This document shows, in pieces, positions 14,006-63,290 of a stretch of 64,000 bases of DNA. The stretch covers positions 310,001 to 374,000 of the forward strand of contig NZ_JAQMHX010000006.1 of assembly GCF_028331445.1 (NCBI RefSeq), given 5' to 3'. This DNA is from Candidatus Phyllobacterium onerii (GTDB taxonomy: Bacteria > Pseudomonadota > Alphaproteobacteria > Rhizobiales > Rhizobiaceae). How positions within the stretch are numbered: the first letter of the stretch is position 1; every line of letters starts with the position of its first letter. Made by a program: the position numbers and the translations under genes. Under the pieces are notes generated by a model that was given only the letters and a program-made list of their open reading frames with translations, made no database searches and was not told the origin of the DNA.

Positions 14006-15189
14006 GACGGCAAAAGCCCCTTGGCCCGCGCAGCCGACCGGATGAATCCGGTGATCGTGGAAAACATCTCGGGCTCATCGAGCAGGAATGAGTCGTGGCC
14101 CCGATCCGACTCGATCTCGACGAAGGACACGGACGCGCCCGCCGCATTCAGCGCATGGGCGACCATCCGGCTTTCGCTGGTCGGGAACAGCCAGTCGCTG
14201 GTGAATGAGACAATGCAGAACCGGGTCTTCGATCCAGCGAAGGCATCGGCAAGCCGGCCGCCATGTTCGGCGGCGAGGTCGAAATAATCCATCGCCCGGG
14301 TCATGTAGAGATAGGAATTCGGGTCGAAGCGCTCGACGAACGTCGTGCCCTGATGGCGCAGATAACTTTCAATCTGGAAATCCGCGTCGAATCCGAAGGT
14401 CAGTTTCTGCCGATCCTGAAGATTGCGTCCGAACTTGTTGTGCAAGGCGGTCTCGGACAGATAGGTGATATGCGCTGCCATGCGGGCGACCGAGAGACCT
14501 TTGCGCGGGACAGTGCCGGCTTCGAGATAACGGCCTTCCTTCCAGTCGGGATCAGCCATGACCGCCTGCCGGCCCACTTCATGGAAGGCGATATTCTGCG
14601 ACGAGTGGCGGGCACCGGTCGCGATCGCCACGGCCGCAAAGACCTTGTCGGAATGGCTCGACGCCCATTCCAGCACCTGCATGCCGCCCATGGATCCGCC
14701 GATCACGGCAAAAAGCTGTTTGATGCCCAAATGCTCGATGAGCATCGCCTGCGCACGCACCATGTCCGCTATCGTGATGATCGGAAGATCCAGCGCGTAA
14801 GCCTTGCCGGTTTCGGGATTGATCGAGGCCGGGCCCGTCGAGCCAAGACAACCACCCAGAACATTGGAACAGAGCACGAAGTAGCGATCCGTATCGATCG
14901 GCTTGCCCGGACCGATGAGCAACTCCCACCAGCCCGGCTTGCCGGTTACGGGATGGACATTGGCGACATGCTGATCGCCTGTCAGCGCATGGCAGACGAG
15001 GATTGCGTTGGACTTGTCGGCGTTGAGTTCGCCATAGGACTGATAGGCGATGCGAAATGGCGAAAGCGATACACCGCTATCCAGGTGCAACGGCTTGTCA
15101 GCGCCAAAATCCACCACCGGACTGTGGGGATTTGTCGCTTCCTGGCTTTGCTGAGCTTTTTTAGCGGATGGTCGGCTGATTTTCGTCAT
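14002..15189 (-). CDS. metX: Homoserine O-acyltransferase MetX
   Basis: Acylates homoserine, historically annotated as O-acetyltransferase, at the first committed step of methionine synthesis. The 395-residue alpha/beta-hydrolase-fold product has the nucleophile motif GGSMGGMQ, the conserved [14 protein letters not shown] loop, and the C-terminal catalytic histidine in DRGHDSFL. Whether the donor is acetyl- or succinyl-CoA cannot be decided here. It is followed by metW in overlap and preceded by a likely sigma-70 promoter divergent from hisC. Confidence 0.95.
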
Positions 15190-15220
15190 GTCTGCGCAAT
15201 TGAGGGCGTGATCGCGCGTA

Positions 15221-15248
15221 GGTATGGTCGCAGTTCGCGCAAAGTCAA
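15221..15248 (-). promoter_or_regulatory. Putative promoter of metX
   Basis: On the minus strand TTGACT (15248-15243) and CATACC (15226-15221) are 16 bases apart, about 32 bases upstream of the metX ATG. The -35 is good and the -10 mediocre. I looked here for the SAM-II aptamer that often precedes met genes in alphaproteobacteria and did not find its GCUAAA-type core. Confidence 0.4.
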
Positions 15249-15321
15249 GTTGTTCTCGACATTGGCCCCATTGGCAGTTATGTCCGCACGGTGCTTTTGC
15301 CCGTTACGGACTCGAACAATT

Positions 15322-16428
15322 ATGACAACGACACGACAAGACATGCGCCCCACTCCGAAAGCCGGTGTGCTCGACATCGCCGCCTATGTGCCTGGCAAGC
15401 ACAGCGCTCCCGGTGTGGAGAATGTGCATAAGCTGTCGTCGAACGAGACGCCGCTCGGTGCCAGCAAGCATGCGATGGAGGCCTATCGCGCTGCGGTGGG
15501 GCAACTGGAGATGTATCCCGATGGTCAGGCGACCCTGCTGAAGCGGGCGATCGCCGATATCCACGGTTTGAACGTCGATAATATCATGTGCGGCAATGGT
15601 TCGGACGAATTGCTCGGCCTGTTGTGCCAGGCCTATCTCGCTGCAGGCGATGAGGCTGTCTATACCGAGCATGGTTTCGGCATTTACAAGATCGCCACCA
15701 TGGCTGCGGGTGGCGTACCGGTCGTTGCCAGCGAAAAGAACGAGCAAGCCGATGTCGATGCGATTTTGCGCGTCGTCACGCCGCGCACCAAGATCGTATT
15801 CTTGGCAAATCCAAACAATCCGACAGGCACCTATCTGCCTTTCGAAGAGGTTCGCCGACTGCATGCCGGGCTGCCGAAGAACGTCATGCTGGTGCTTGAC
15901 GCCGCCTATGCGGAATATGTTCGCCGCAATGACTATGAGTCAGGTGTCGAACTGGTATCATCGTCCGAAAATGTCGTGATGACCCGCACGTTTTCGAAGA
16001 TATACGGCCTTGCCGCTTTGCGCGTCGGCTGGATGTTTGCGCCCGCCCATATCATCGATGCGACGAACCGCATCCGCGGCCCGTTCAATCTGAACTCCGC
16101 GGCCATCGTCGCCGGCGCTGCGGCGATACGCGACCGCGCGCATCTCAACGATGCTGTGGCTTTCAACGAGAAGTGGCTGCCCTGGCTCACCGAACAATTG
16201 ACCGGGCTTGGGCTCCGGGTCACGCCGTCGGTAGGAAATTTCCTTCTCGTGCACTTTCCCGAAGATCCGGCGAAATCGGCGGAGAAGGCAGACGCTTACC
16301 TGACGAGCAAGGGCTATATTTTGCGCCGCGTCACGGGATACGGATTTCCGAACGCGTTGCGCCTTTCCATTGGATCCGAAGAAGCCAATCTGGGCGTGGT
16401 CGCAGCACTCTCCGAATTCTTAAAGTAG
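15322..16428 (+). CDS. hisC: Histidinol-phosphate aminotransferase
   Basis: PLP-dependent aminotransferase acting on histidinol phosphate; members next to tyrA can also serve aromatic amino acids. The 368-residue product shows [26 protein letters not shown] and the PLP lysine in [16 protein letters not shown]. The open frame continues more than 1 kb upstream through antisense of metX. The ATG at 15322 is chosen because homology-like sequence ([17 protein letters not shown]) begins right after it. A second ATG at 15343 is possible. Confidence 0.93.
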
Positions 16429-16550
16429 ATTCATACCATGACGGGCTGCAAATGGCGTTTTCCTGTGCTCCGGTGCTCACGTACCTTAAAGTACGCTGCG
16501 CTCCGGTGCTCGAAAACCACCATTTTCGCCGCGTCATAGCGCGAATCTCA
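16429..16550 (+). repeat. Dispersed palindromic element, subtype I, copy A
   Basis: An element of about 120 bp begins at the hisC stop. The centre is CGTAC (16480-16484) / GTACG (16491-16495) around CTTAAA, flanked by direct copies of GCTCCGGTGCTC. The outer arms AAATGG and CCATTT pair, and the right end CGTCATAGCGCGAATCTC matches copies B and C. It lies between hisC and the tyrA-type gene, both on the plus strand. Confidence 0.9.
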
Positions 16551-16573
16551 GCGCAGTTACAGGTCATAGAAAC

Positions 16574-19191: not shown

Positions 19192-19230
19192 GGGGCGGGT
19201 CTCGCTATCGGTCAGGGAGAGACCGTTGAC

Positions 19231-19353
19231 AATCCACCCCGACGGCCATTTGATGCGATTTTCTGCGCTTCCGGTGCTCATGGACCAAATGTCCACTGCG
19301 CTCCGGGTCTCGAAAACCACATCAACTGACTCGCCAGGCTGAATTCTCAAACA
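19231..19353 (+). repeat. Dispersed palindromic element, subtype II, copy D
   Basis: It shares CCGGTGCTC, GCGCTCCG and TCGAAAACCAC with the other copies. Its central stem is instead TGGAC (19281-19285) / GTCCA (19291-19295), and the right end is GGCTGAATTCTCA as in copy E. It lies between the divergent DUF2125 and ChaC-like genes. Confidence 0.85.
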
Positions 19354-19359
19354 GTCTCT

Positions 19360-23592: not shown

Positions 23593-23605
23593 CAGTCCTA
23601 AGAAA

Positions 23606-23762
23606 GACCCCTCCCTGCTGCTACGCAGCCTCCCTCCCCACAAGGGGGAGGGTAGGACCGTCGCACCCTTGATGTACGTACATGCAAATCTCCGGGATGT
23701 ATGAGCTAGCGCCTGACCCTCCCCCTTGTGGGGAGGGACGGAGCGAAGCGACGGGGAGGGGC
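23606..23762. repeat. C/G-rich inverted repeat, copy 1
   Basis: Two arms of about 48 bp in opposite orientation (23606-23655 and 23716-23762) are separated by about 60 bases. Each arm runs from CCCCTCCC to a CCCTCCCC...GGGGGAGGG block, and the ACAAGGGGGAGGG ends face inward. The arms also contain small hairpins. It could act as a bidirectional terminator for lysA. The same element recurs at 26484-26600. Confidence 0.85.
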
Positions 23763-23881
23763 ATCTTGCTCCTCTACACAAAACTATGATCGCATTTTTA
23801 CCCCAAGGCCTCGCCTTTGCCACGATGAATGGTATTGTTCTATGATGCCAGCACCGTCGATGCCGGCAAGATGGAGTGTGT

Positions 23882-26452: not shown

Positions 26453-26483
26453 ATTTAGCGCAGTTGCATAAGGTTTGGCGCCA

Positions 26484-26600
26484 TACCCTCCCCCTTGTGG
26501 GGAGGGAAGCTGCGAAGCAGCAGGGAGGGGCTTTTTTTATAGCAGCAAGCAAGACCCCTCCCCGAACCTGCGGTTCGTCCCTCCCCACAAGGGGGAGGGT
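26484..26600. repeat. C/G-rich inverted repeat, copy 2
   Basis: The same two arms as at 23606-23762 but in the opposite arrangement: 26484-26530 and 26553-26600, with the CCCCCTTGTGGGG blocks facing outward and about 22 bases between. Internal hairpins GCTGC-GAA-GCAGC and GAAC-CTGCG-GTTC are visible. It lies between the convergent DUF4175 and hpt genes and may terminate both. Confidence 0.85.
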
Positions 26601-26612
26601 AGGGACGTCGAG

Positions 26613-30264: not shown

Positions 30265-31044
30265 ATGACGATCATTCGATCAATCGCCTTCAACACACTC
30301 TTCTATCTGAATTTGATCATCCGGATGATCATCTTCACGCCCTATTATTTCTTGAGCCCGCGCAAGCAAGCGTGGAGCGTTCCGAAAAACTGGGCGAAAT
30401 CAAATCTGTGGCTGCAAAAGGTGATCGTCGGCGCAGACGTCCACATCGATGGGCTGGAGAATATTCCGGATGGTCCGTATATATGTGCGCCGAAGCACCA
30501 ATCCTTCTGGGATACCTATGCCTTCCTGCCGCACATCGCCGACCCGGTCTATATCCTCAAGCGCGAGCTGACCTGGATTCCGCTGTTCGGCTGGTACATT
30601 CAGAAAATGAAAATGGTGCCGATCGATCGCGGCAAGCGTTCCGCGGCCATGAAAGTGGCTGTCAGGGGTGCGCGCGAAGCTGTCGCCGGAGGGCGGCAGC
30701 TGATGATTTATCCTGAAGGCACACGGACCGCGCCGGGTGCGCCGCCGCATTACAAATACGGCGTCGCGCATATCTATGGCGAACTCGGTGTTCCCGTCGT
30801 TCCGATCGCCCACAATGCCGGGCTCTACTGGCCGCGCCGCAAGTTCATGCGCTATCCCGGCGTCATCCGCTGCCGCATTTTGCCGCCGATCCAGCCAGGA
30901 CTCGACAATGACGCGTTTTTGAAAAAGCTCGAAGAGGTTACCGAAGCGGCCTGCGACGAGATCCTGATCGAAGCGGCGAAGTCGGACAATCCGCCGCCCA
31001 TGCCGCCAACGGCAGTCAGGCGGCTGAAGGAACTCGGCGTCTAG
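30265..31044 (+). CDS. plsC: 1-acylglycerol-3-phosphate O-acyltransferase
   Basis: Adds the second acyl chain in phosphatidic acid synthesis. The 259-residue product has an N-terminal hydrophobic segment (NTLFYLNLIIRMIIFTPYYF), the catalytic HX4D motif in KHQSFWD, and the substrate motif YPEGTRTAPG. The frame is open for 44 codons upstream into the YdcF gene; ATG 30265 is the first that fits the N-terminal helix. A repeat element begins just after the stop. Confidence 0.92.
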   Translation: MTIIRSIAFNTLFYLNLIIRMIIFTPYYFLSPRKQAWSVPKNWAKSNLWLQKVIVGADVHIDGLENIPDGPYICAPKHQSFWDTYAFLPHIADPVYILKRELTWIPLFGWYIQKMKMVPIDRGKRSAAMKVAVRGAREAVAGGRQLMIYPEGTRTAPGAPPHYKYGVAHIYGELGVPVVPIAHNAGLYWPRRKFMRYPGVIRCRILPPIQPGLDNDAFLKKLEEVTEAACDEILIEAAKSDNPPPMPPTAVRRLKELGV

Positions 31045-31050
31045 GGTCCG

Positions 31051-31181
31051 TCGATATTCGCGCTCTGACGGCCTGCAAACGGCGTTTCTCTGCGCTCCGG
31101 TGCTCACGTACCTTAAAGTACGCTACGCTCCGGTGCTCGAAAGCCACCGTTTTCGGCTCGTCATAGCGCGAATCTCAACAG
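31051..31181 (+). repeat. Dispersed palindromic element, subtype I, copy B
   Basis: Outer arms TTCGCGCTCTGACG (31057-31070) and CGTCATAGCGCGAA (31159-31172) pair at 13 of 14 positions. The next stem is AAACGG/CCGTTT, where copies A and C have AAATGG/CCATTT. The core is CGTAC/GTACG around CTTAAA. It lies between plsC and the convergent hydrolase gene. Confidence 0.9.
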
Positions 31182-31212
31182 ACCCAGTGCAAGTTCTGTC
31201 CAAATTACCTGT

Positions 31213-31263: not shown

Positions 31264-33975
31264 CTATTGCTTGGCGAGCTTCTGCGAAGGTTTCTCCCGG
31301 CCAAGGTTCTGCAGTTCTATATCGGTGATGGCCACCTTGCCGCTCTCCTTGGGGAAGACGAGTTTCAGCTCTTTCAAGCTAGTCAGGTCAATGCCCTCGA
31401 AGGCCTTGAGCGGGATGGCGACCATGTTCATGAGGATCTTTACTTGACCATCGGCGAAGGGTGAATCATCCGGATGATCGACCATCGGAATGCTTGTAGC
31501 CTTTTTGTCTTCGCCCCCGTCCAGATGCGTAACCGCCGGTTCCTCATCGGACTTTTTCCGTGGCGCGTTGTAGGTTGCATTGCTGAAATCGCTTGCCTTT
31601 AGCATTGCTGTCCTGCCGGCGCTGTCTGTCAGCGTCACCTCAACCTCCTGGCCCATGGGCCGTACCACGCCGATGCGAAAGGTGAGTGAATCCATGCCCT
31701 TGGCGGAAAGGCCCTTGAGGTCGGTGACGACGGAGGGTTCTTTGGCTGACCAGGCGAGTTCGAGATGGTCGGCAATGGAAAGCATGCCACCATCACCGTA
31801 TTCGAACCCAGGTAGCAGGCCAGGCAAACAATCGCCGATCGGATATTTCGTCGCTGCGTACCAAAATCCTGGCACTAAGTATGACGGGCCAATTGGCATC
31901 TCACAGCGCGCGGACGCATCAAAGCCCTTCAAGGTGATCGCACCGCCAAACTCATTCTCGGTTGCACTCTCATCGCGCGCGAAACGTGCGATGAGCTTGC
32001 GGCTGGGCGCGCCTTTTTGCACAGTCAGGACGATACGTTCGTCACATGGACCGTCCGTCGAGGGGCAGGCGGCACCCGGCAATTGCGCAGTGCCATTCCA
32101 GTATGCTGCGAATTTTTGCTCCCCGCCCACATGATAACGCATGAAGGAATTGATGAGAAAGCTGCCGCCGCGGCGCTGATCGACCCGGTTCAGGCGAATA
32201 GAGCCAGGCCGATCGTCCGCGCAATAGGATGTTCCGCCGCTGTCGAAATCATCCTCCCACCACTCGGTATTGTAGAAATTGTGGTTGGCACCAAAGACCT
32301 GGATTTGATAGCGCGGTGCCGTATCGGTGATTGGGCCGAAACGGTTGTGGTCATACGATCTTGCGCCATAGAGGGAGCTCACATCGCCATCGCATGTGGG
32401 CAGCAAATTGGCGAGCGGTACATTGTTGACGCCAAGATTGCCATTATTGTCCATCGGCGCGAGCATGAATGCGCCCTTGAAATCGTAAGGCGGGATGGTT
32501 TCCCGGCCGGCGGCATAGAAGATATTGTATTTTTTGACCGCGTCCTCGAACGTCATTTTCGCGCTATCATTCGACTGGGTTTCTTCATTATTTTCGTTCG
32601 AATTATCTTCTGCTACCGGCTGGATGATCGCCGGTATGATCGTGGCCAGCAAATCGGGAAAAAAGCCGCCCAAGGGAAAATGACCCGCGAGCAGTAGGGT
32701 TTTGGTGGCTTCGGCGTCAGGCAATAATCCGCCGACAAGTGGCGATTCTTTAGATTTGTCGTAGGCGGTCTTGAACTTTGCCTCGTCGATGCTGACCGTT
32801 GGTTCCTTCTCCACCATTTCCGTGGTCGCAGGTATGACCGTTGCTAGCAAATCGGGAAAAAAGCCACCCAAGGGAAATTGACCGGAGAGCAGTAAAGCTT
32901 TGGTGGCTTCGGCGTCAGGCAATAATCCGCCGACCAAGGGCGTTTCTTTGGATTTCTCGTAGGCGATCTTGAACTTTGCCTCATCGAAGTGGGCCGGCAC
33001 GACTTTCTCGATTTTCGCGACAGCCGGCGTGACGACCGGTTGCGTCGTTGCGGGTGTTACTGCAGCGACAAGATCCGGATAGTCGTTCGCGAAGAAATCG
33101 GGATGGTCCTCCAACGCTTTTTTCAGATCGCCCGGACTGACCCCCACCCGGGTCTGATTGTATTTGATGGCGTTGGAGACACCTTGCCCGCCGCGCGAAT
33201 GGCCCATGATACCGACGCGGGTGAAGTCGAGCTTGCCTTTCAGGAAATTGAGCGGTCCGGCTTCCCCCGATTCGTCGACCTGACCGAGCTCGTCAATCTG
33301 CTGCAAACGATCGAGCGTACCGAGGATCAATTGTGCCCGTGCCTGACCTTGTTTATCTCCACCCCAATTACCATTGATCGCATTCCCGTCGACTGAAAGA
33401 ACGACATAGCCGTGGCTCGCCAGTTCCTCGGCGAGATAGTCATAACCTTTGTAACTGGGGTCGGACGGCGAATGTTGGCCGTGCTCGAAGACAATGACAG
33501 GAAAGCGTCCTTTTGGTGCAAGCGGCTTGGGGTCCTGCGGATAGCGTATCCAGCCGGCAACCTGAGAGATGAAAAACTTATCGTCACTAGCCGAGGTTAG
33601 ATCATTTGCCACCGACGCAACAAGATTGCCGAGATCATAGTCCATCTCCGGCGATGACCGGAACGTCGCCCCGCCAGCGGTATCAGGGGCGATTTCGGTA
33701 AAGCGCCCGACCTTTGTGGCCAGCGGAATGGCAAAGCCGCCGGTGGTTACCGGGTCCTGTGCTGGCTTGCCAACAGTCACTGTACCTTTGACCGGCTCGT
33801 CCTTGGGGACCTCTGCCGTAACAACGGTTTTTACCGCCGGCACATCGAATGTCGTGTCGGATGATGTCTTATCCTCATTGCAGCCTGATAAAGTAGCAGC
33901 AAGTAGTGCCGATATGCACGCTGTTTGTGCAAGTCTGCACGCCAAGCGCGTGCCTGGTTTCAACCATTGCGTCAT
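31264..33975 (-). CDS. Large lipoprotein with alpha/beta-hydrolase domain and internal tandem repeats
   Basis: A 903-residue protein. A signal with lipobox (LLAATLSGC) predicts a lipid-anchored envelope protein. The hydrolase part shows FPVIVFEHGQHSP (oxyanion strand) and the nucleophile elbow GHSRGG with Ser260. After it comes a 66-residue unit repeated in tandem, with a third degenerate copy, and then a Asn/Glu-rich stretch (EDNSNENNEETQSND). The second half has FGANHNFYNTEWW (likely the catalytic His region) and a beta-rich C-terminal domain. ATG 33975 has GAGGGAA upstream. Substrate is unknown; a dienelactone/PAF-hydrolase-like esterase is the nearest guess. Confidence 0.8.
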   Translation of the reverse strand: MTQWLKPGTRLACRLAQTACISALLAATLSGCNEDKTSSDTTFDVPAVKTVVTAEVPKDEPVKGTVTVGKPAQDPVTTGGFAIPLATKVGRFTEIAPDTAGGATFRSSPEMDYDLGNLVASVANDLTSASDDKFFISQVAGWIRYPQDPKPLAPKGRFPVIVFEHGQHSPSDPSYKGYDYLAEELASHGYVVLSVDGNAINGNWGGDKQGQARAQLILGTLDRLQQIDELGQVDESGEAGPLNFLKGKLDFTRVGIMGHSRGGQGVSNAIKYNQTRVGVSPGDLKKALEDHPDFFANDYPDLVAAVTPATTQPVVTPAVAKIEKVVPAHFDEAKFKIAYEKSKETPLVGGLLPDAEATKALLLSGQFPLGGFFPDLLATVIPATTEMVEKEPTVSIDEAKFKTAYDKSKESPLVGGLLPDAEATKTLLLAGHFPLGGFFPDLLATIIPAIIQPVAEDNSNENNEETQSNDSAKMTFEDAVKKYNIFYAAGRETIPPYDFKGAFMLAPMDNNGNLGVNNVPLANLLPTCDGDVSSLYGARSYDHNRFGPITDTAPRYQIQVFGANHNFYNTEWWEDDFDSGGTSYCADDRPGSIRLNRVDQRRGGSFLINSFMRYHVGGEQKFAAYWNGTAQLPGAACPSTDGPCDERIVLTVQKGAPSRKLIARFARDESATENEFGGAITLKGFDASARCEMPIGPSYLVPGFWYAATKYPIGDCLPGLLPGFEYGDGGMLSIADHLELAWSAKEPSVVTDLKGLSAKGMDSLTFRIGVVRPMGQEVEVTLTDSAGRTAMLKASDFSNATYNAPRKKSDEEPAVTHLDGGEDKKATSIPMVDHPDDSPFADGQVKILMNMVAIPLKAFEGIDLTSLKELKLVFPKESGKVAITDIELQNLGREKPSQKLAKQ
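32631..33060 (-). repeat. 198-bp tandem repeat inside the hydrolase gene
   Basis: The segments starting near 32631 and 32829 are the same sequence at a 198-bp (66-codon) period. Over about 143 aligned bases from AGCAAATCGGG I counted roughly 16 mismatches by eye. A third, more diverged start (YPDLVAAVTPATTQ) lies one further period on, near 33027. The repeated peptide includes VGGLLPDAEATK and FPLGGFFPDLLAT. Confidence 0.9.
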
Positions 33976-36974: not shown

Positions 36975-37598
36975 TCAACCAAAAATATGCAAGGCCGCGA
37001 GCCCGACCGAGGCGCCGAGCCCGATGGCGATGCCTGCGGCAAGCGCTGCCACCAATAGGCCTGTTCCAAGCCAGACGCCGTCCTGTTCGCCAAGGCCGAT
37101 GGCCAAAAGGACAATGCCGAGCGCCGGCAGCTGATTGATGAGCGGGACCGGCAGGATGACAATCAGCGACATCAGCAGCGCGACGATGCTGACGACACGC
37201 TCGACGATCATTTGCGGAACGAACCAATAGCGCGGGCGTGCCAGCTTTTCAAAGCGAACGAGCATGGGCTCCAGCCTTGCAATGAACCTGCGATAGGTTT
37301 CGACCTGCATGGATTTGCGCCGCATGAAGGCGGGAAACCACGGTTTTTCAAAGCCCAGCAGCATCTGGATCGAGAGCAGCACCAGCGGAATGCCGAAGAT
37401 CGTGGAACTGCCCGGAGGAAGCGGCACGAGATTGAGCGCCGCAAAAAGGATCATGAGCGCGCCGAAACTACGTTCCGACAAGGCGTCGAGAATGTCGTCG
37501 AACGATATTCTTGTCGCAGGATCCGCGCCGATCTCGACCAGGACTTTGGACAAGCGCCGCGTATCCAGATCGTACGGCGCGCTATCATCGCCGCTCAT
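36975..37598 (-). CDS. exoD: ExoD-family membrane protein
   Basis: 207 residues with a polar N-terminus and several hydrophobic helices. The ExoD pattern is clear in [20 protein letters not shown] and [20 protein letters not shown]. ExoD was named for exopolysaccharide and alkaline-pH phenotypes in Sinorhizobium; its molecular role is unknown. Repeat element C abuts the start codon on the upstream side. The yaiI-type gene follows two bases downstream. Confidence 0.88.
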
Positions 37599-37729
37599 CG
37601 ATATTCACGCTCTGACGGCCTGCAAATGGCGTTTTTCTGCGCTCCGGTGCTCACGTACCTTAAAGTACGCTGCGCTCCGGTGCTCGAAACCCACCATTTT
37701 CGTCGCGTCATGGCACGAATCTCAACAGT
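37599..37729 (+). repeat. Dispersed palindromic element, subtype I, copy C
   Basis: Nearly the same as copy B: TATTCACGCTCTGACGG on the left, TCGTCGCGTCATGGCACGAA on the right, core CGTAC-CTTAAA-GTACG, and flanking direct copies of TGCGCTCCGGTGCTC. It lies between hbd and exoD, both on the minus strand, so any exoD message starting from hbd would contain its complement. Confidence 0.9.
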
Positions 37730-46635: not shown

Positions 46636-47217
46636 ATGGTTGGATTGGGAGTTGATTCCTTGACAATAGCCGTCTCGCCGGACGGGTTACCGGCTCTGGT
46701 ACTCAATGCGGACTACCGTCCGCTCAGTTATTATCCCTTGTCGCTCTGGTCCTGGCAGGACGCGATCAAGGCGGTTTTTCTTGACCGTGTGAACATCGTC
46801 GCCGAATACGAACACGAGGTTTCCTCGCCCTCTTTCGCGATGCGCCTGCCCAGCGTGGTATCGCTCAAGACGTACATCAAACCCTCCCGCAATCCAGCCT
46901 TTACCCGGTTCAACGTCTTCCTGCGCGACCGGTTCGAATGCCAGTATTGCGGCTCCGAAGAAGATCTGACTTTCGATCACGTCATCCCACGCTGTGCGGG
47001 CGGCGAAACGATCTGGGAGAATGTCGTCGCGGCCTGTTCACCTTGCAATCTTCGCAAGGGCGGGCTGATGCCCAACCGTGCCAAAATGTGGCCGAGGCAG
47101 AAGCCCTATGAGCCGACGGTGCATGATCTGCACAATAATGGCCGGCTGTTTCCGCCAAACCATCTGCACGAAAGCTGGATGGATTATCTGTACTGGGATG
47201 TCGAGCTGGAACCCTAA
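46636..47217 (+). CDS. HNH endonuclease domain protein
   Basis: 193 residues. The C-terminal half contains an HNH motif with paired zinc cysteines: RFECQYCGSEEDLTFDHVIP then ENVVAACSPCNLRKGG. The N-terminal ALVLNADYRPLSYYPLSLW is conserved in a widespread chromosomal family of housekeeping-like HNH proteins. Its function is unclear, and it does not look like a homing endonuclease. Repeat element E follows the stop. Confidence 0.9.
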   Translation: MVGLGVDSLTIAVSPDGLPALVLNADYRPLSYYPLSLWSWQDAIKAVFLDRVNIVAEYEHEVSSPSFAMRLPSVVSLKTYIKPSRNPAFTRFNVFLRDRFECQYCGSEEDLTFDHVIPRCAGGETIWENVVAACSPCNLRKGGLMPNRAKMWPRQKPYEPTVHDLHNNGRLFPPNHLHESWMDYLYWDVELEP

Positions 47218-47228
47218 AAACCTCTGCC

Positions 47229-47351
47229 AATCCAACCCATTGGCCATCTGATGCGATTTTCTGCGCTTCCGTTGCTCACGAACCCAAAAGTTCGCTGCGC
47301 TACGGTTCTCGAAAACCACACCAGCTGACCCATCAGGCTGAATTCTCAGAG
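47229..47351 (+). repeat. Dispersed palindromic element, subtype II, copy E
   Basis: Shares its left end (AATCCA-CCC-GGCCAT-TGATGCG pattern) and right end (GGCTGAATTCTCA) with copy D. Its central stem is CGAAC (47279-47283) / GTTCG (47290-47294), different from both the CGTAC and the TGGAC versions but still paired. It lies between the convergent HNH and dsbB genes. Confidence 0.85.
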
Positions 47352-47386
47352 GGTTTTTGCGTGGCGGCCTAAACAAGGGAACGAAG

Positions 47387-48514: not shown

Positions 48515-48701
48515 CAAGTCGGTTCCTGTGGGGGAGGCTATTTTTGAAAAGTCGGGTGATCTTTAGAGCAAACCGCAGCCAAATGGAATCGTCTCGCTCA
48601 ATTTTTGCCAAGGCTGTTTTCCTGGCCATTCGCCTCTATTTGTCTCGTGCGGGCAGGGCAACACACGACTGTGTTACATTTAAGAAATCATCTTATTGCT
48701 G

Positions 48702-49918: not shown

Positions 49919-50443
49919 GTGAATGTTTTGACTTCGACAGACGTCTGTTCAATCTCAATGGCCAGCCGGGCCGCGGGCATAAGCCGCGTCTTGATAGTCC
50001 TTCTCGGCCTGTTGCTTGGCGTCTTCGGTCCAACGGGTAATGCCTGGAGCGACAAGGGTTCGAGTTCCGGGGGAAGCTCCGGTTCGGGCTCAAGTGGAGG
50101 CTCGGGCAGTAGTGGTTCAGGTTCTGGCGATAGTGGATCAGGATCGGGCTCAAGTGGGGGCTCCGGCAGTAGTGGTTCAGGCTCCGGCAATAGTGGCTCG
50201 GACAATTCCGGCTCCGGGTCCAGCGGGGGTGGTTCGCACAGTTCCGGTTCTGATGACTCAGGCGGTGACAGATCGGGTGCGACGTCGGGTACCGGGAGAC
50301 AGGAACGGACCTATCAGGGCGGATGGAGGGAGCGCATTCGCAATGGCCGCTACGAGATCTTCGATCCGGCCGGCCGTCGCGTCATCAACCGGAAGGCAAA
50401 CCCGGCCGATGGGCTTCGCATCAACCAAGCCGGTTCGCGCTAA
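49919..50443 (+). CDS. Secreted Gly/Ser-repeat protein
   Basis: A protein of about 174 residues of unrecognised family. A hydrophobic signal (VLIVLLGLLLGVFGPTGNAW) is followed by a long Gly/Ser/Asp run (about residues 45-125, SGSGSSGG-type). A basic C-terminal segment then looks conserved: ERIRNGRYEIFDPAGRRVIN. The start is uncertain: GTG 49919 opens the frame, and ATG 49958 is closer to the signal peptide; neither has a clean ribosome-binding site. It converges on the response regulator with a six-base gap. Confidence 0.65.
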   Translation: MNVLTSTDVCSISMASRAAGISRVLIVLLGLLLGVFGPTGNAWSDKGSSSGGSSGSGSSGGSGSSGSGSGDSGSGSGSSGGSGSSGSGSGNSGSDNSGSGSSGGGSHSSGSDDSGGDRSGATSGTGRQERTYQGGWRERIRNGRYEIFDPAGRRVINRKANPADGLRINQAGSR

Positions 50444-60012: not shown

Positions 60013-61254
60013 ATGTCCACGTCCGTCTCTCCGCTGGCTCCGAAACATTATCCGACCATGCCGGAAATTCACGGGGTAAAGATCGCCACAGCTGAAGCCG
60101 GTATCAAATACAAGGGCCGGACAGACGTTTTGCTCATCGTATTCGATCGGCCAACGGCCGTGGCCGGCGTATTTACACGGTCCAAATGCCCTTCGGCAGC
60201 CGTGGATTACTGCCGTACAAGCCTGGAAGGCGGCACGGCGCGGGCCGTCGTCGTCAATTCCGGCAATGCCAATGCCTTCACCGGCAAAAAGGGTCGCGAG
60301 TCGGCCAAGTTGACCGCTGCAGCGGCCGCAAAGGCTGTGGATTGCAAGCCCCACCATATTTTTCTTGCCTCGACCGGCGTGATCGGTGAGCCGCTCGATG
60401 CGGGTAAGTTCAGCCATCTTCTGACGGATATGACCAAGAATGCCGTTGCCGGGCGCTGGCAGGATGCTGCGAGCGCCATCATGACGACCGATACATTTCC
60501 CAAGGTCGCAACCGAGACCGTACTGCTGGGCCGCGTGCCGGTGACAATAAATGGCATCGCCAAGGGTGCCGGCATGATTGCGCCGGATATGGCCACGATG
60601 CTGTCTTTCGTCGCCACCGATGCGCCAATTGCGGCAGATGTGCTGCAGAAGTTGCTGGCGAAATCCGTTGGCAAGAGTTTCAATTCCGTCACTGTCGACA
60701 GCGATACATCGACATCAGACACCCTGCTGCTTTTTGCTACCGGATCGGCTGCCGAACGCGGCGCTGCACCTGTTACCAAGCTCAAGGACAAGCGTCTCAA
60801 GCCTTTCGCCAAAGCGCTCGACCGCGTTCTCAAGGACCTCGCACTGCAGGTAGTGCGCGACGGCGAGGGCGCACGCAAGATGCTTGAAATCAGCGTAACC
60901 GGTGCGACCTCCGCGCGCTCCGCCAAGCGGATCGCGTTGTCGATTGCCAATTCGCCGCTGGTCAAGACCGCTGCCGCTGGCGAGGACGCCAATTGGGGCC
61001 GCATCGTTATGGCCGTCGGCAAGGCTGGTGAACCGGCCGACCGCGACCGGCTGGCGATCTGGTTCGGGGATATCCGTGTTGCTCGCGAAGGTGAACGCGA
61101 TCCGGACTATTCGGAAGAAGCGACCTCCGCCTATATGAAGAATGACGATATCAAGATCCGTGTCGACATCGGTCTCGGCAAAGGCAAGGCGACTGTCTGG
61201 ACCTGCGATTTGACGAAGGAATATGTGGCGATCAATGGCGATTATCGCAGCTAA
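60013..61254 (+). CDS. argJ: Glutamate N-acetyltransferase / amino-acid acetyltransferase ArgJ
   Basis: Transfers acetyl between N-acetylornithine and glutamate (arginine synthesis). The 413-residue precursor self-cleaves before the catalytic Thr in the [13 protein letters not shown] motif, which is present and intact. [14 protein letters not shown] and the C-terminal [18 protein letters not shown] are typical. Whether it is bifunctional (also acetyl-CoA dependent) cannot be read. argH is elsewhere in the window (20.7 kb). Confidence 0.96.
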
Positions 61255-61260
61255 AAGCCG

Positions 61261-61394
61261 TTTGAAACTCTACTGCGGCGGTCATCTGACGCGATTTTCT
61301 CCGCTTCCGGTGCTCACGTACTTTAAGTACGCTGCGCTCCGGTTCTCGAAAACCACGCCATATGCCGCGCCGCAGCGACTTACAAACAGGCTCT
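61261..61394 (+). repeat. Dispersed palindromic element, subtype III, copy F
   Basis: Outer arms CTGCGGCG and CGCCGCAG pair. The core is CGTAC (61317-61321) / GTACG (61327-61331) around TTTAA. The left end (CTCTACTGCGGCGG) and right end (CGCAGCGACTT) match copies G and H. It lies between argJ and the GNAT gene. Confidence 0.9.
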
Positions 61395-62160: not shown

Positions 62161-62564
62161 GCGAACACCCGATCCTTCTCGTGACGGCCTGTGCGCTGGT
62201 CGACGCGGATGGCCGGGTGTTGCTGACCCAGCGTCCGGAAGGCAAATCGCTTGCCGGTCTCTGGGAGTTTCCGGGCGGCAAGGTCGATCCGGGGGAAACG
62301 CCGGAAGAAAGCCTGATCCGCGAACTGCACGAAGAACTCGGCATCATTGTCAAACCGGCCTGCTTGGCGCCGCTGACCTTTGCCAGCCACACCTATGAAA
62401 CCTTCCATCTGCTGATGCCGTTGTTCATCTGCCGGCGCTATGAGGGGATACCCCGCGGGATGGAGGGGCAGGTTCTCAAATGGGTACGGCCAAAGGATAT
62501 GCGCGACTATCCAATGCCGCCTGCAGATATCCCACTCATCCCGTTCCTTGTCGATCTCCTGTAA
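62157..62564 (+). CDS. mutT: 8-oxo-dGTP diphosphatase MutT
   Basis: A 135-residue Nudix hydrolase. The Nudix box is complete: GGKVDPGETPEESLIRELHE followed by ELG. LLTQRPEGKSLAGLWEFPGG and the C-terminal MPPADIPLI are typical of MutT, which cleans 8-oxo-dGTP from the nucleotide pool. The ATG overlaps the GNAT stop, so the two form an operon. Repeat element G follows the stop. Confidence 0.92.
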   Translation: MSEHPILLVTACALVDADGRVLLTQRPEGKSLAGLWEFPGGKVDPGETPEESLIRELHEELGIIVKPACLAPLTFASHTYETFHLLMPLFICRRYEGIPRGMEGQVLKWVRPKDMRDYPMPPADIPLIPFLVDLL

Positions 62565-62571
62565 CAGCCCG

Positions 62572-62709
62572 TCTTGAAAGTCTACTGCGGCGGTCATCTG
62601 ACGCGATTCTCTGTGCTTCCGGTGCTCACGTACTTTATGTACGCTGCGCTCCGGTTCTCGAGAACCACGCCATCTGACTCGCCACAGCGACTTTCCAAAC
62701 TGGCTGTGA
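62572..62709 (+). repeat. Dispersed palindromic element, subtype III, copy G
   Basis: Same ends as copies F and H (CTACTGCGGCGGTCATCTG, CACAGCGACTTTCC). The core reads CGTAC-TTTAT-GTACG. It lies between mutT and the small membrane protein gene. The remaining 107 bases to the next start show no gene. Confidence 0.9.
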
Positions 62710-62816: not shown

Positions 62817-63146
62817 ATGGGGCGTAAGAACGACTATCTCGATGATGAACTGTTACAACCAAGCGCGCTTTCGGGTGCAGCCGGAGGTATCTTGCGGATC
62901 ACGTTGCTGTTCGGTTCGGCAGCCGTTGCGCTGGCTCTGATCATTGCGCCGCTCGCTGACCGCGGTTCGCAGGCTGTCGTCGATTATTCGACCAGCCGCT
63001 CCATCGATGAGATCCAGACCGGATCGATCAAGAAGCCCGAACCAATAACCACGTCCACCTATACCATTCGCCGCAGCGTAACGCAGTCTTCGCCCAAGGC
63101 GGTCTGTATATTGAACAGCGATGGCTCAAAGATCGGCGACTGCTGA
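62817..63146 (+). CDS. Hypothetical small membrane protein
   Basis: 109 residues, no recognised family. A polar start (MGRKNDYLDDELLQPSALSG) is followed by one helix (ILRITLLFGSAAVALALIIAPLADRG) and a polar tail ending CILNSDGSKIGDC, with two cysteines eleven residues apart. ATG 62817 has AGGTGGGG upstream and is preferred over a longer in-frame start at 62757. Two repeat elements flank the gene. Function is unknown. Confidence 0.7.
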   Translation: MGRKNDYLDDELLQPSALSGAAGGILRITLLFGSAAVALALIIAPLADRGSQAVVDYSTSRSIDEIQTGSIKKPEPITTSTYTIRRSVTQSSPKAVCILNSDGSKIGDC

Positions 63147-63290
63147 GAAAACTCTACTGCGGCGGGCATCTGCCGCGATTTTCTGCGCTTCCGGTGCTCA
63201 CGTACTTTAAGTACCCTGCGCTCGTCGCAAGAGCGACCCCGAAAACCACGCCATACGTCTCGCCGCAGCGACTTTTCCAAATGGGCTCAG
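63146..63290 (+). repeat. Dispersed palindromic element, subtype III, copy H, with internal change
   Basis: Ends match F and G, and the core is CGTAC-TTTAA-GTAC. In the right arm, where other copies have GCTCCGGTTCTCGAAAACC, this copy has an unrelated stretch containing GTCGC-AAGA-GCGAC (63224-63237), a small hairpin of its own. It abuts the stop of the upstream gene and ends before the convergent methyltransferase stop. Confidence 0.85.

Follow-up and report, generated by a model that had tools for sequence, protein, structure and literature searches.

A probably MITE-like palindromic repeat of about 142 bp in Candidatus Phyllobacterium onerii: arm pairing, insertion sites, stop-codon docking and replication polarity

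The spread of palindromic intergenic repeats that lack their own transposase is an open question in the field, and it is raised by a 64,000-nucleotide stretch of the genome of Candidatus Phyllobacterium onerii (contig NZ_JAQMHX010000006.1, positions 310,001 to 374,000; hereafter the window), in which one palindromic element occurs eight times. For this element, junctions and empty sites are available together with a fold specific to one strand and a polarity towards both genes and replication, so that its mode of movement can be directly tested. The insertion junctions, the docking at stop codons, the replication polarity and the identity of the better-folding strand described below all go beyond the initial annotation of this locus.

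All eight copies were found where they had first been placed, both by reading the sequence and by repeat finding, and were recovered with E values from 3e-12 to 5e-30 by a model (R1) built from alignment A1, which comprises 43 copies of the host genome, window copies among them. The location of the copies was thus confirmed, while for most of them the true ends lay some bases outside the coordinates originally given. R1 detected no ninth copy in the window, its six further matches being the opposite strand of the same eight copies. The copies are listed here with one empty target site and with the neighbouring genes, as called by our own simple gene caller.

16420..16553, plus strand: copy 1, R1 score 123.3 bits; tips decayed, extent derived from the model; preceded by a plus-strand gene (14263-16428, aminotransferase domain) with a TAG stop at 16426-16428.
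19219..19358, plus strand: copy 2, 102.9 bits; tips of the GAGACC/GGTCTC type, central stem TGGAC/GTCCA; divergent genes on either side.
31044..31185, plus strand: copy 3, 133.5 bits; tips read; the upstream plus-strand gene (acyltransferase domain) has a TAG stop at 31042-31044 that is completed by the first G of the element.
37594..37727, plus strand: copy 4, 127.5 bits; extent derived from the model; between two minus-strand genes.
47218..47357, plus strand: copy 5, 104.5 bits; central stem CGAAC/GTTCG, tips read; preceded by a plus-strand gene (HNH domain) with a TAA stop at 47215-47217.
48564..48566, no strand: empty target site TAG in CTTTAGAGC; the element is present here in three relatives.
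61255..61393, plus strand: copy 6, 103.0 bits; right flank TGA; preceded by argJ, TAA stop at 61252-61254.
62565..62706, plus strand: copy 7, 109.0 bits; right flank TGA; preceded by a NUDIX gene, TAA stop at 62562-62564.
63147..63288, plus strand: copy 8, 59.6 bits; right repeat broken by a nested hairpin; preceded by a short plus-strand gene, TGA stop at 63144-63146.

The host genome (6.0 Mb, 65 contigs) returned 108 R1 matches at E <= 0.01, corresponding to about 90 copies, the weakest of them partial, once 18 opposite-strand self-matches had been removed. A pattern describing the core matched 33 times, against none for the same pattern read backwards, and these two results together argue that the element is not a product of chance. 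A near-complete relative, G019, carried 92 copies on its 3.87-Mb chromosome and three on other contigs after removal of 16 opposite-strand self-matches. Of 120 copies inspected across the host and G019, 62 had definable tips and 58 had unclear ones; a length of 140-143 bp was measured in 49 of the 62, and the unit is a single imperfect hairpin of about 142 bp reaching out to the tips, with T-N-A or TA as flanks. The tips mostly read GAGCC, GAGAC, GAGTC or GGGTC, the terminal G being partly due to construction as the tip search demanded G first and C last.

At the core, two near-direct repeats, TGCGCT(T)CCGGTGCTC, flank a CGTAC-loop-GTACG stem, and the arms prolong this hairpin to the tips. Subtypes differ in arms and tips, and more than the three originally proposed were found. 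The stem variants first reported, CGTAC/GTACG, TGGAC/GTCCA (19.28 kb) and CGAAC/GTTCG (47.28 kb) at the centre and AAATGG/CCATTT or AAACGG/CCGTTT in the outer stem, are real in the sequence. Copies from other genera showed the same core and layout with other tips, eleven of which were complementary over all 14 nt compared. The element is short and non-coding, with terminal inverted repeats and complementary tips; terminal inverted repeats and target duplications are the features attributed to MITEs in a passage of PMC3049150. An Rfam search of the window at gathering thresholds returned one tRNA and nothing at the element, and five loci searched down to E 5 gave three matches, none at the element. 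Copy 8 (H) carries an additional hairpin, GTCGCAAGAGCGAC, within its right repeat. Matches of 83-94% over the same stretch occurred elsewhere in the relatives G017, G004, G001 and G005, and this nested-hairpin variant seems to have multiplied.

The initial annotation had proposed that the paired structure and not the sequence is kept, and this was examined by covariation in two alignments. A1 contained 43 of the 44 extracted host copies (63146 left out), identical 40-nt cores having been dropped beforehand, while A2 contained 64 sequences mostly from other genera, i.e. 59 of 73 extracted references and five host or window copies, chosen by an exact core pattern from the 80 listed of 112 stretches. 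As A2 was picked by its core, it speaks for the arms, and its core pairs prove nothing. The pairing was taken from averaged single-sequence folds of the top strand because an RNAalifold consensus on A1 had only 10 pairs; since averaged folds inflate the share of paired cells, the two-sided counts and the controls with slid partners carry more weight. In A1, 80.4% of the cells were paired, compared with 72.6% when the 3' letters were shuffled and at most 45.7% when the partners were slid, and two-sided changes were present in 32 pairs against 22.9 after shuffling. The corresponding values for A2 were 78.9%, 62.7% and at most 42.1%, with two-sided changes in 730 cells, compared with 272 after shuffling and no more than 290 after sliding; as the copies are related, the cells are not independent events. 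These comparisons give good support to a conserved pairing of the arms, whose tip sequences differ between lineages but remain complementary. The original proposal thus holds for the arms and only in part for the core, whose sequence is itself highly conserved, two-sided changes affecting only 2 of the innermost 9 pairs among own-genome copies.

The two strands of the element do not fold equally well. RNA folding of the top strand was clear relative to dinucleotide shuffles in six of the eight window copies (z -2.3 to -6.0) and weak in the other two (z about -1.6). This reported strand, on which the initial annotation was based, is the weaker folder and the complement folds best, as for the 31-kb copy, with -61.8 kcal/mol for the reported strand vs -81.6 kcal/mol for its complement. 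With RNA energies, the reverse complement was the better folder in 43/43 sequences of A1 and 61/64 of A2, and with DNA energies the reported strand was never the better one. When the arms alone were considered, the complement was favoured in 41/43 (A1) and 58/64 (A2) sequences by RNA energies and in 37/43 and 61/64 by DNA energies. On the reported strand, A.C mismatches, which are G.U on the complement, exceeded G.U by 173:57 in A1 and 311:140 in A2, a bias that was borderline in a sign test by column (p 0.05 and 0.09). These calculated energies lead us to infer a role for the bottom strand in single-stranded form, either as RNA or as DNA.

The mismatch bias also bears on a different origin of the paired changes, which might have arisen in the absence of selection if the replication machinery switched templates from one arm to the other. 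The correction of near-palindromes by template switching is known in E. coli, and adjacent arm positions of the element do change together across lineages. However, this process predicts no strand preference, whereas the arm mismatches favour the bottom strand, albeit at the borderline significance given above, and we consider it an unlikely source of the covariation.

Insertion was then assessed by comparing orthologous sites between species. At window position 48564 the host site CTTTAGAGC is empty, while G019 reads CTTTA-[element]-TAGAGC; the element is likewise present in G001 and G005, and the relatives with an empty site include G017, G004, G018 and G011. At 61255 the empty site of G011, AGC-TGA-CAAGG, compares with AGC-TAA-[element]-TGA-CAAGG in the window. 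The copy at 62565 is absent from the orthologous site in G004 and G017, and that at 63147 from the site in G001 and G004. The sites orthologous to copy 5 are in part filled, in part empty and in part occupied by another subtype. The orthologous sites were not filled in all relatives, empty ones being present. As the occupancy of these sites varies from species to species, with a duplication of 2-3 bp at two of the empty/filled pairs, the element is, judging from the aligned junctions, mobile and makes discrete insertions at T-N-A or TA. Among the 62 tip-defined copies the left flank was T-N-A in 32 and NTA in 19, and identical 3-bp flanks were present in nine against 3.9 after shuffling, a value reached by 62 of 5000 shuffles; a target duplication may thus be weakly visible across all copies. 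In some relatives, exactly the insertion points of 61255 and 47218 (L301-L305, L287) were occupied by another subtype with unchanged orientation. This would count against simple descent, and both re-insertion and replacement fit.

Related genomes were searched as well, and 17 of 20 genomes of the genus showed matches at 1e-6 (0-137 each, opposite-strand self-matches included), the remaining three having none. Among the matches listed, the core occurred in contigs of Mesorhizobium, Phyllobacterium, Brucella/Ochrobactrum and Devosia, and also of Sphingobium, Novosphingobium, Stappia, Asticcacaulis and others. Across the class, model R2 matched at least 25 of 289 genomes (at least 23 of 219 genera) at 1e-6, a lower bound obtained with stricter filters and ten candidates scored per genome; in the genus of a Brucella pituitosa contig it matched 32 of 35 genomes. 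Among 72,556 plasmid records, 29 and 31 matched, all named as alphaproteobacterial genera, whereas a single query of phage records returned no match; the core was present in 19 stretches of viral contigs. The spread thus appears patchy, with varying copy number. The core was also observed in a contig labelled Bacillus sp. 2B10 (L098), with tips that look Sphingobium-type, and the label or the assembly of this contig may be wrong.

The position of the copies relative to genes was analyzed in G019 (five contigs), where 47 of the 92 chromosomal copies had defined tips. In 18 of these 47 (TAG 9, TGA 5, TAA 4), a same-strand gene had its stop codon ending right at the tip, with an offset of 0 or 1, and the stop of an opposite-strand gene lay at the other tip in three, stops representing 580 of the 6424 T-N-A triplets that are usable without gene breakage in the sampled sequence. 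With a wider search interval, which includes genes running slightly into the element, 60/92 copies had a same-strand stop and 5/92 only an opposite one. In the window, a same-strand stop precedes six of the eight copies, copy 4, flanked by minus-strand genes on both sides, being an exception to docking in the sense direction. Insertion keeps the stop working, as TA followed by the G of the element gives TAG, and TAA and TGA remain whole. The argJ gene preceding copy 6 is not truncated, since its Pfam match extends to the last residue, and the minus-strand gene adjoining copy 2 probably has its true start to the left of the element, as its DUF2125 match begins only at residue 87. The left tips often adjoin the stop codon of an upstream gene on the same strand, and this gene stays intact. 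Landing at a stop where a working stop remains shows how such an element can become numerous in a compact genome while doing little damage.

Orientation was also related to replication. In G019 the origin was placed at about 1.15 Mb and the terminus at about 3.05 Mb from the GC skew of 39 sampled stretches. The skew of sampled 20-kb stretches was used as the replication proxy, that of 3-kb loci having been discarded as too noisy (35/59 positive). The orientations of the chromosomal copies formed 12 runs, compared with a shuffle mean of 43 and with 0 of 20,000 shuffles as low. The reported strand was on the leading strand in 76/92 copies, against 424/784 genes (54%), and eight of the 16 non-leading copies lay at 3.40-3.63 Mb. 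Copies at stops are mostly in the direction of the gene itself, but the replication alignment exceeds what gene direction explains: the leading orientation was present in 45/55 copies docked at a same-strand stop and in 23/27 copies away from stops, which rules out an orientation merely following that of the genes. In the host, orientation switched in 6 of 77 neighbouring pairs against 38 expected, and in Sphingobium sp. SYK-6 a weak agreement with the sampled skew was found (12/16 copies, one-sided p 0.04). The pneumococcal BOX, RUP and SPRITE repeats have leading-strand shares of 60.8-63.3%, reported as mirroring coding bias in a passage of PMC3049150, vs 83% for our element. GANTC sites were observed in the right arm of 40/92 and the left arm of 10/92 G019 chromosomal copies (L204-L238, L322-L384), on a genome background of 1.9 per kb.

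Copies at gene ends might instead be hairpins of use to the host, stabilising or ending the mRNA as part of its 3'-UTR and kept for that purpose, with mobility a secondary matter. The excess of same-strand over opposite-only stops in the wide interval (60 to 5) and the conserved pairing are what such hairpins would lead one to expect. However, the mRNA would hold the weaker-folding strand and species differ in which sites are filled, which makes this role less likely; in addition, three genomes of the genus had no match at 1e-6, and the copies off stops were equally aligned with replication (23/27). We therefore judge a primary 3'-UTR function to be improbable.

Taken together, the empty and filled sites, the T-N-A flanks, the covariation, the docking at stops, the leading orientation, the better-folding complement and the patchy spread suggest that this repeat of about 142 bp is probably a non-autonomous transposable element of MITE-like type. 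A transposase supplied in trans would move the copies, and the bottom strand would have to fold at some step, as single-stranded DNA or RNA. The orientation could be set at insertion, if this takes place at replication forks and at the ends of transcribed genes, or by later loss of those copies whose strong-folding strand comes to lie in mRNA or on the lagging-strand template, and the data fit both. Cut-and-paste transposition alone predicts no orientation bias, which counts against the MITE-like reading, as do the weakness of the duplication signal and the absence from the host of both transposase domains searched for, Y1_Tnp and DUF4096. Moreover, in ordinary MITEs it is the interior that varies and the tips that are constant, whereas this element has a constant core and tips that differ from lineage to lineage. 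IS5-family (IS1031-like) MITEs show a T-N-A target duplication and go with a DUF4096-type transposase, and T-N-A flanks are common here; the DUF4096 domain (PF13340) was absent from two of three carrier genomes, namely the host and G019, while G001 had two, at whose loci a simple scan detected no inverted ends like those of the element.

An HUH enzyme that acts on the lagging-strand template and mobilises a REP-like element in single-stranded form would agree with the replication polarity, the strand-specific folding and the conserved core mismatches. Against it, the Y1_Tnp domain (PF01797) was not found in the host genome by a search that was positive in 5/14 control genomes, the weaker-folding strand lies on the lagging template, and the identical flanks of some copies point to duplication, and we regard this route as very doubtful. 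The GTAG and CGTC REP superfamilies share with the element a palindromic structure but consist of 20-40 bp units, with CGTC stems of 8-9 bp; the CGTC type is common in alphaproteobacteria, without a known transposase, and is reported missing from Brucellaceae (passages of PMC3733652), whereas the element matches in a genus of that family. The REP membership first considered, and with it a REP/RAYT system, was rejected on the length of about 142 bp and the missing Y1_Tnp domain in the host.

It is also conceivable, if on the unlikely side, that the mobile form is the folded single strand of the complement, recognised by core and fold and not by fixed tips. Such a form would dock at stops in gene direction, insert in step with the fork by means of another system, and have persisted across alphaproteobacterial orders with its tips drifting by compensatory change.

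For the MITE-like element that we favour, relationships with described families were then considered. ERIC, RUP and Correia elements are likewise hairpin-forming mobile repeats of similar size. CIR repeats of Caulobacter carry a GANTC site in one arm. A passage of PMC10969869 presents them as strictly intergenic alphaproteobacterial repeats counted as MITEs, and it is by description that they resemble the element. Bru-RS repeats, in passages of PMC2267715, PMC2266754 and PMC3163539, are intergenic and palindromic, with a length of 103-106 bp in print and a modelled length of 118 bp. They are targets of IS711, whose insertion at YTAR duplicates TA (PMC2266754, PMC3163539); they are also treated in a passage of PMC10800456. 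Bru-RS1 and Bru-RS2 of Brucella share with the element the palindromic structure, the intergenic location, the bacterial order and a related insertion chemistry nearby, but differ in length (103-106 bp vs about 142 bp), the comparison being made by description only. A 280-kb sample of genome G325 had 51.5% GC and showed no repeats in the comparison, which was uninformative on Bru-RS.

The element may prove to be a longer relative of Bru-RS or CIR, and thus a member of a known family, a possibility that we hold tentatively and lean against. The palindromic, intergenic nature of Bru-RS with its IS711 insertions at YTAR, the strictly intergenic CIR, the R2 matches in 32/35 genomes of the genus of the Brucella pituitosa contig and the uneven GANTC sites (right arm 40/92, left arm 10/92) speak for it, whereas the length differs (142 bp against 103-106 bp). 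Among the matches listed for strings of the element in the literature, only 10-mers occurred and no title concerned such a repeat. Judged by title and start of abstract, the family was not described in the literature retrieved that links palindromic repeats to stop codons and the leading strand, nor among the matches listed on repeats of Phyllobacterium and Sphingomonas/Erythrobacter, and a search on the replication orientation of MITEs found none. The family is provisionally regarded as novel, Bru-RS and CIR being near to it in kind and host.

Finally, the window contains other repeats. At 23600-23767 and 26478-26610, two further kinds of short palindromic repeat, of the CCCTCCCC...GGGGAGGG type, are each present twice; they belong to another family than the 142-bp element. 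At 32625-32996 and 50078-50197, an open reading frame containing two direct repeats of 174 nt and a tandem repeat of 60 nt were observed.
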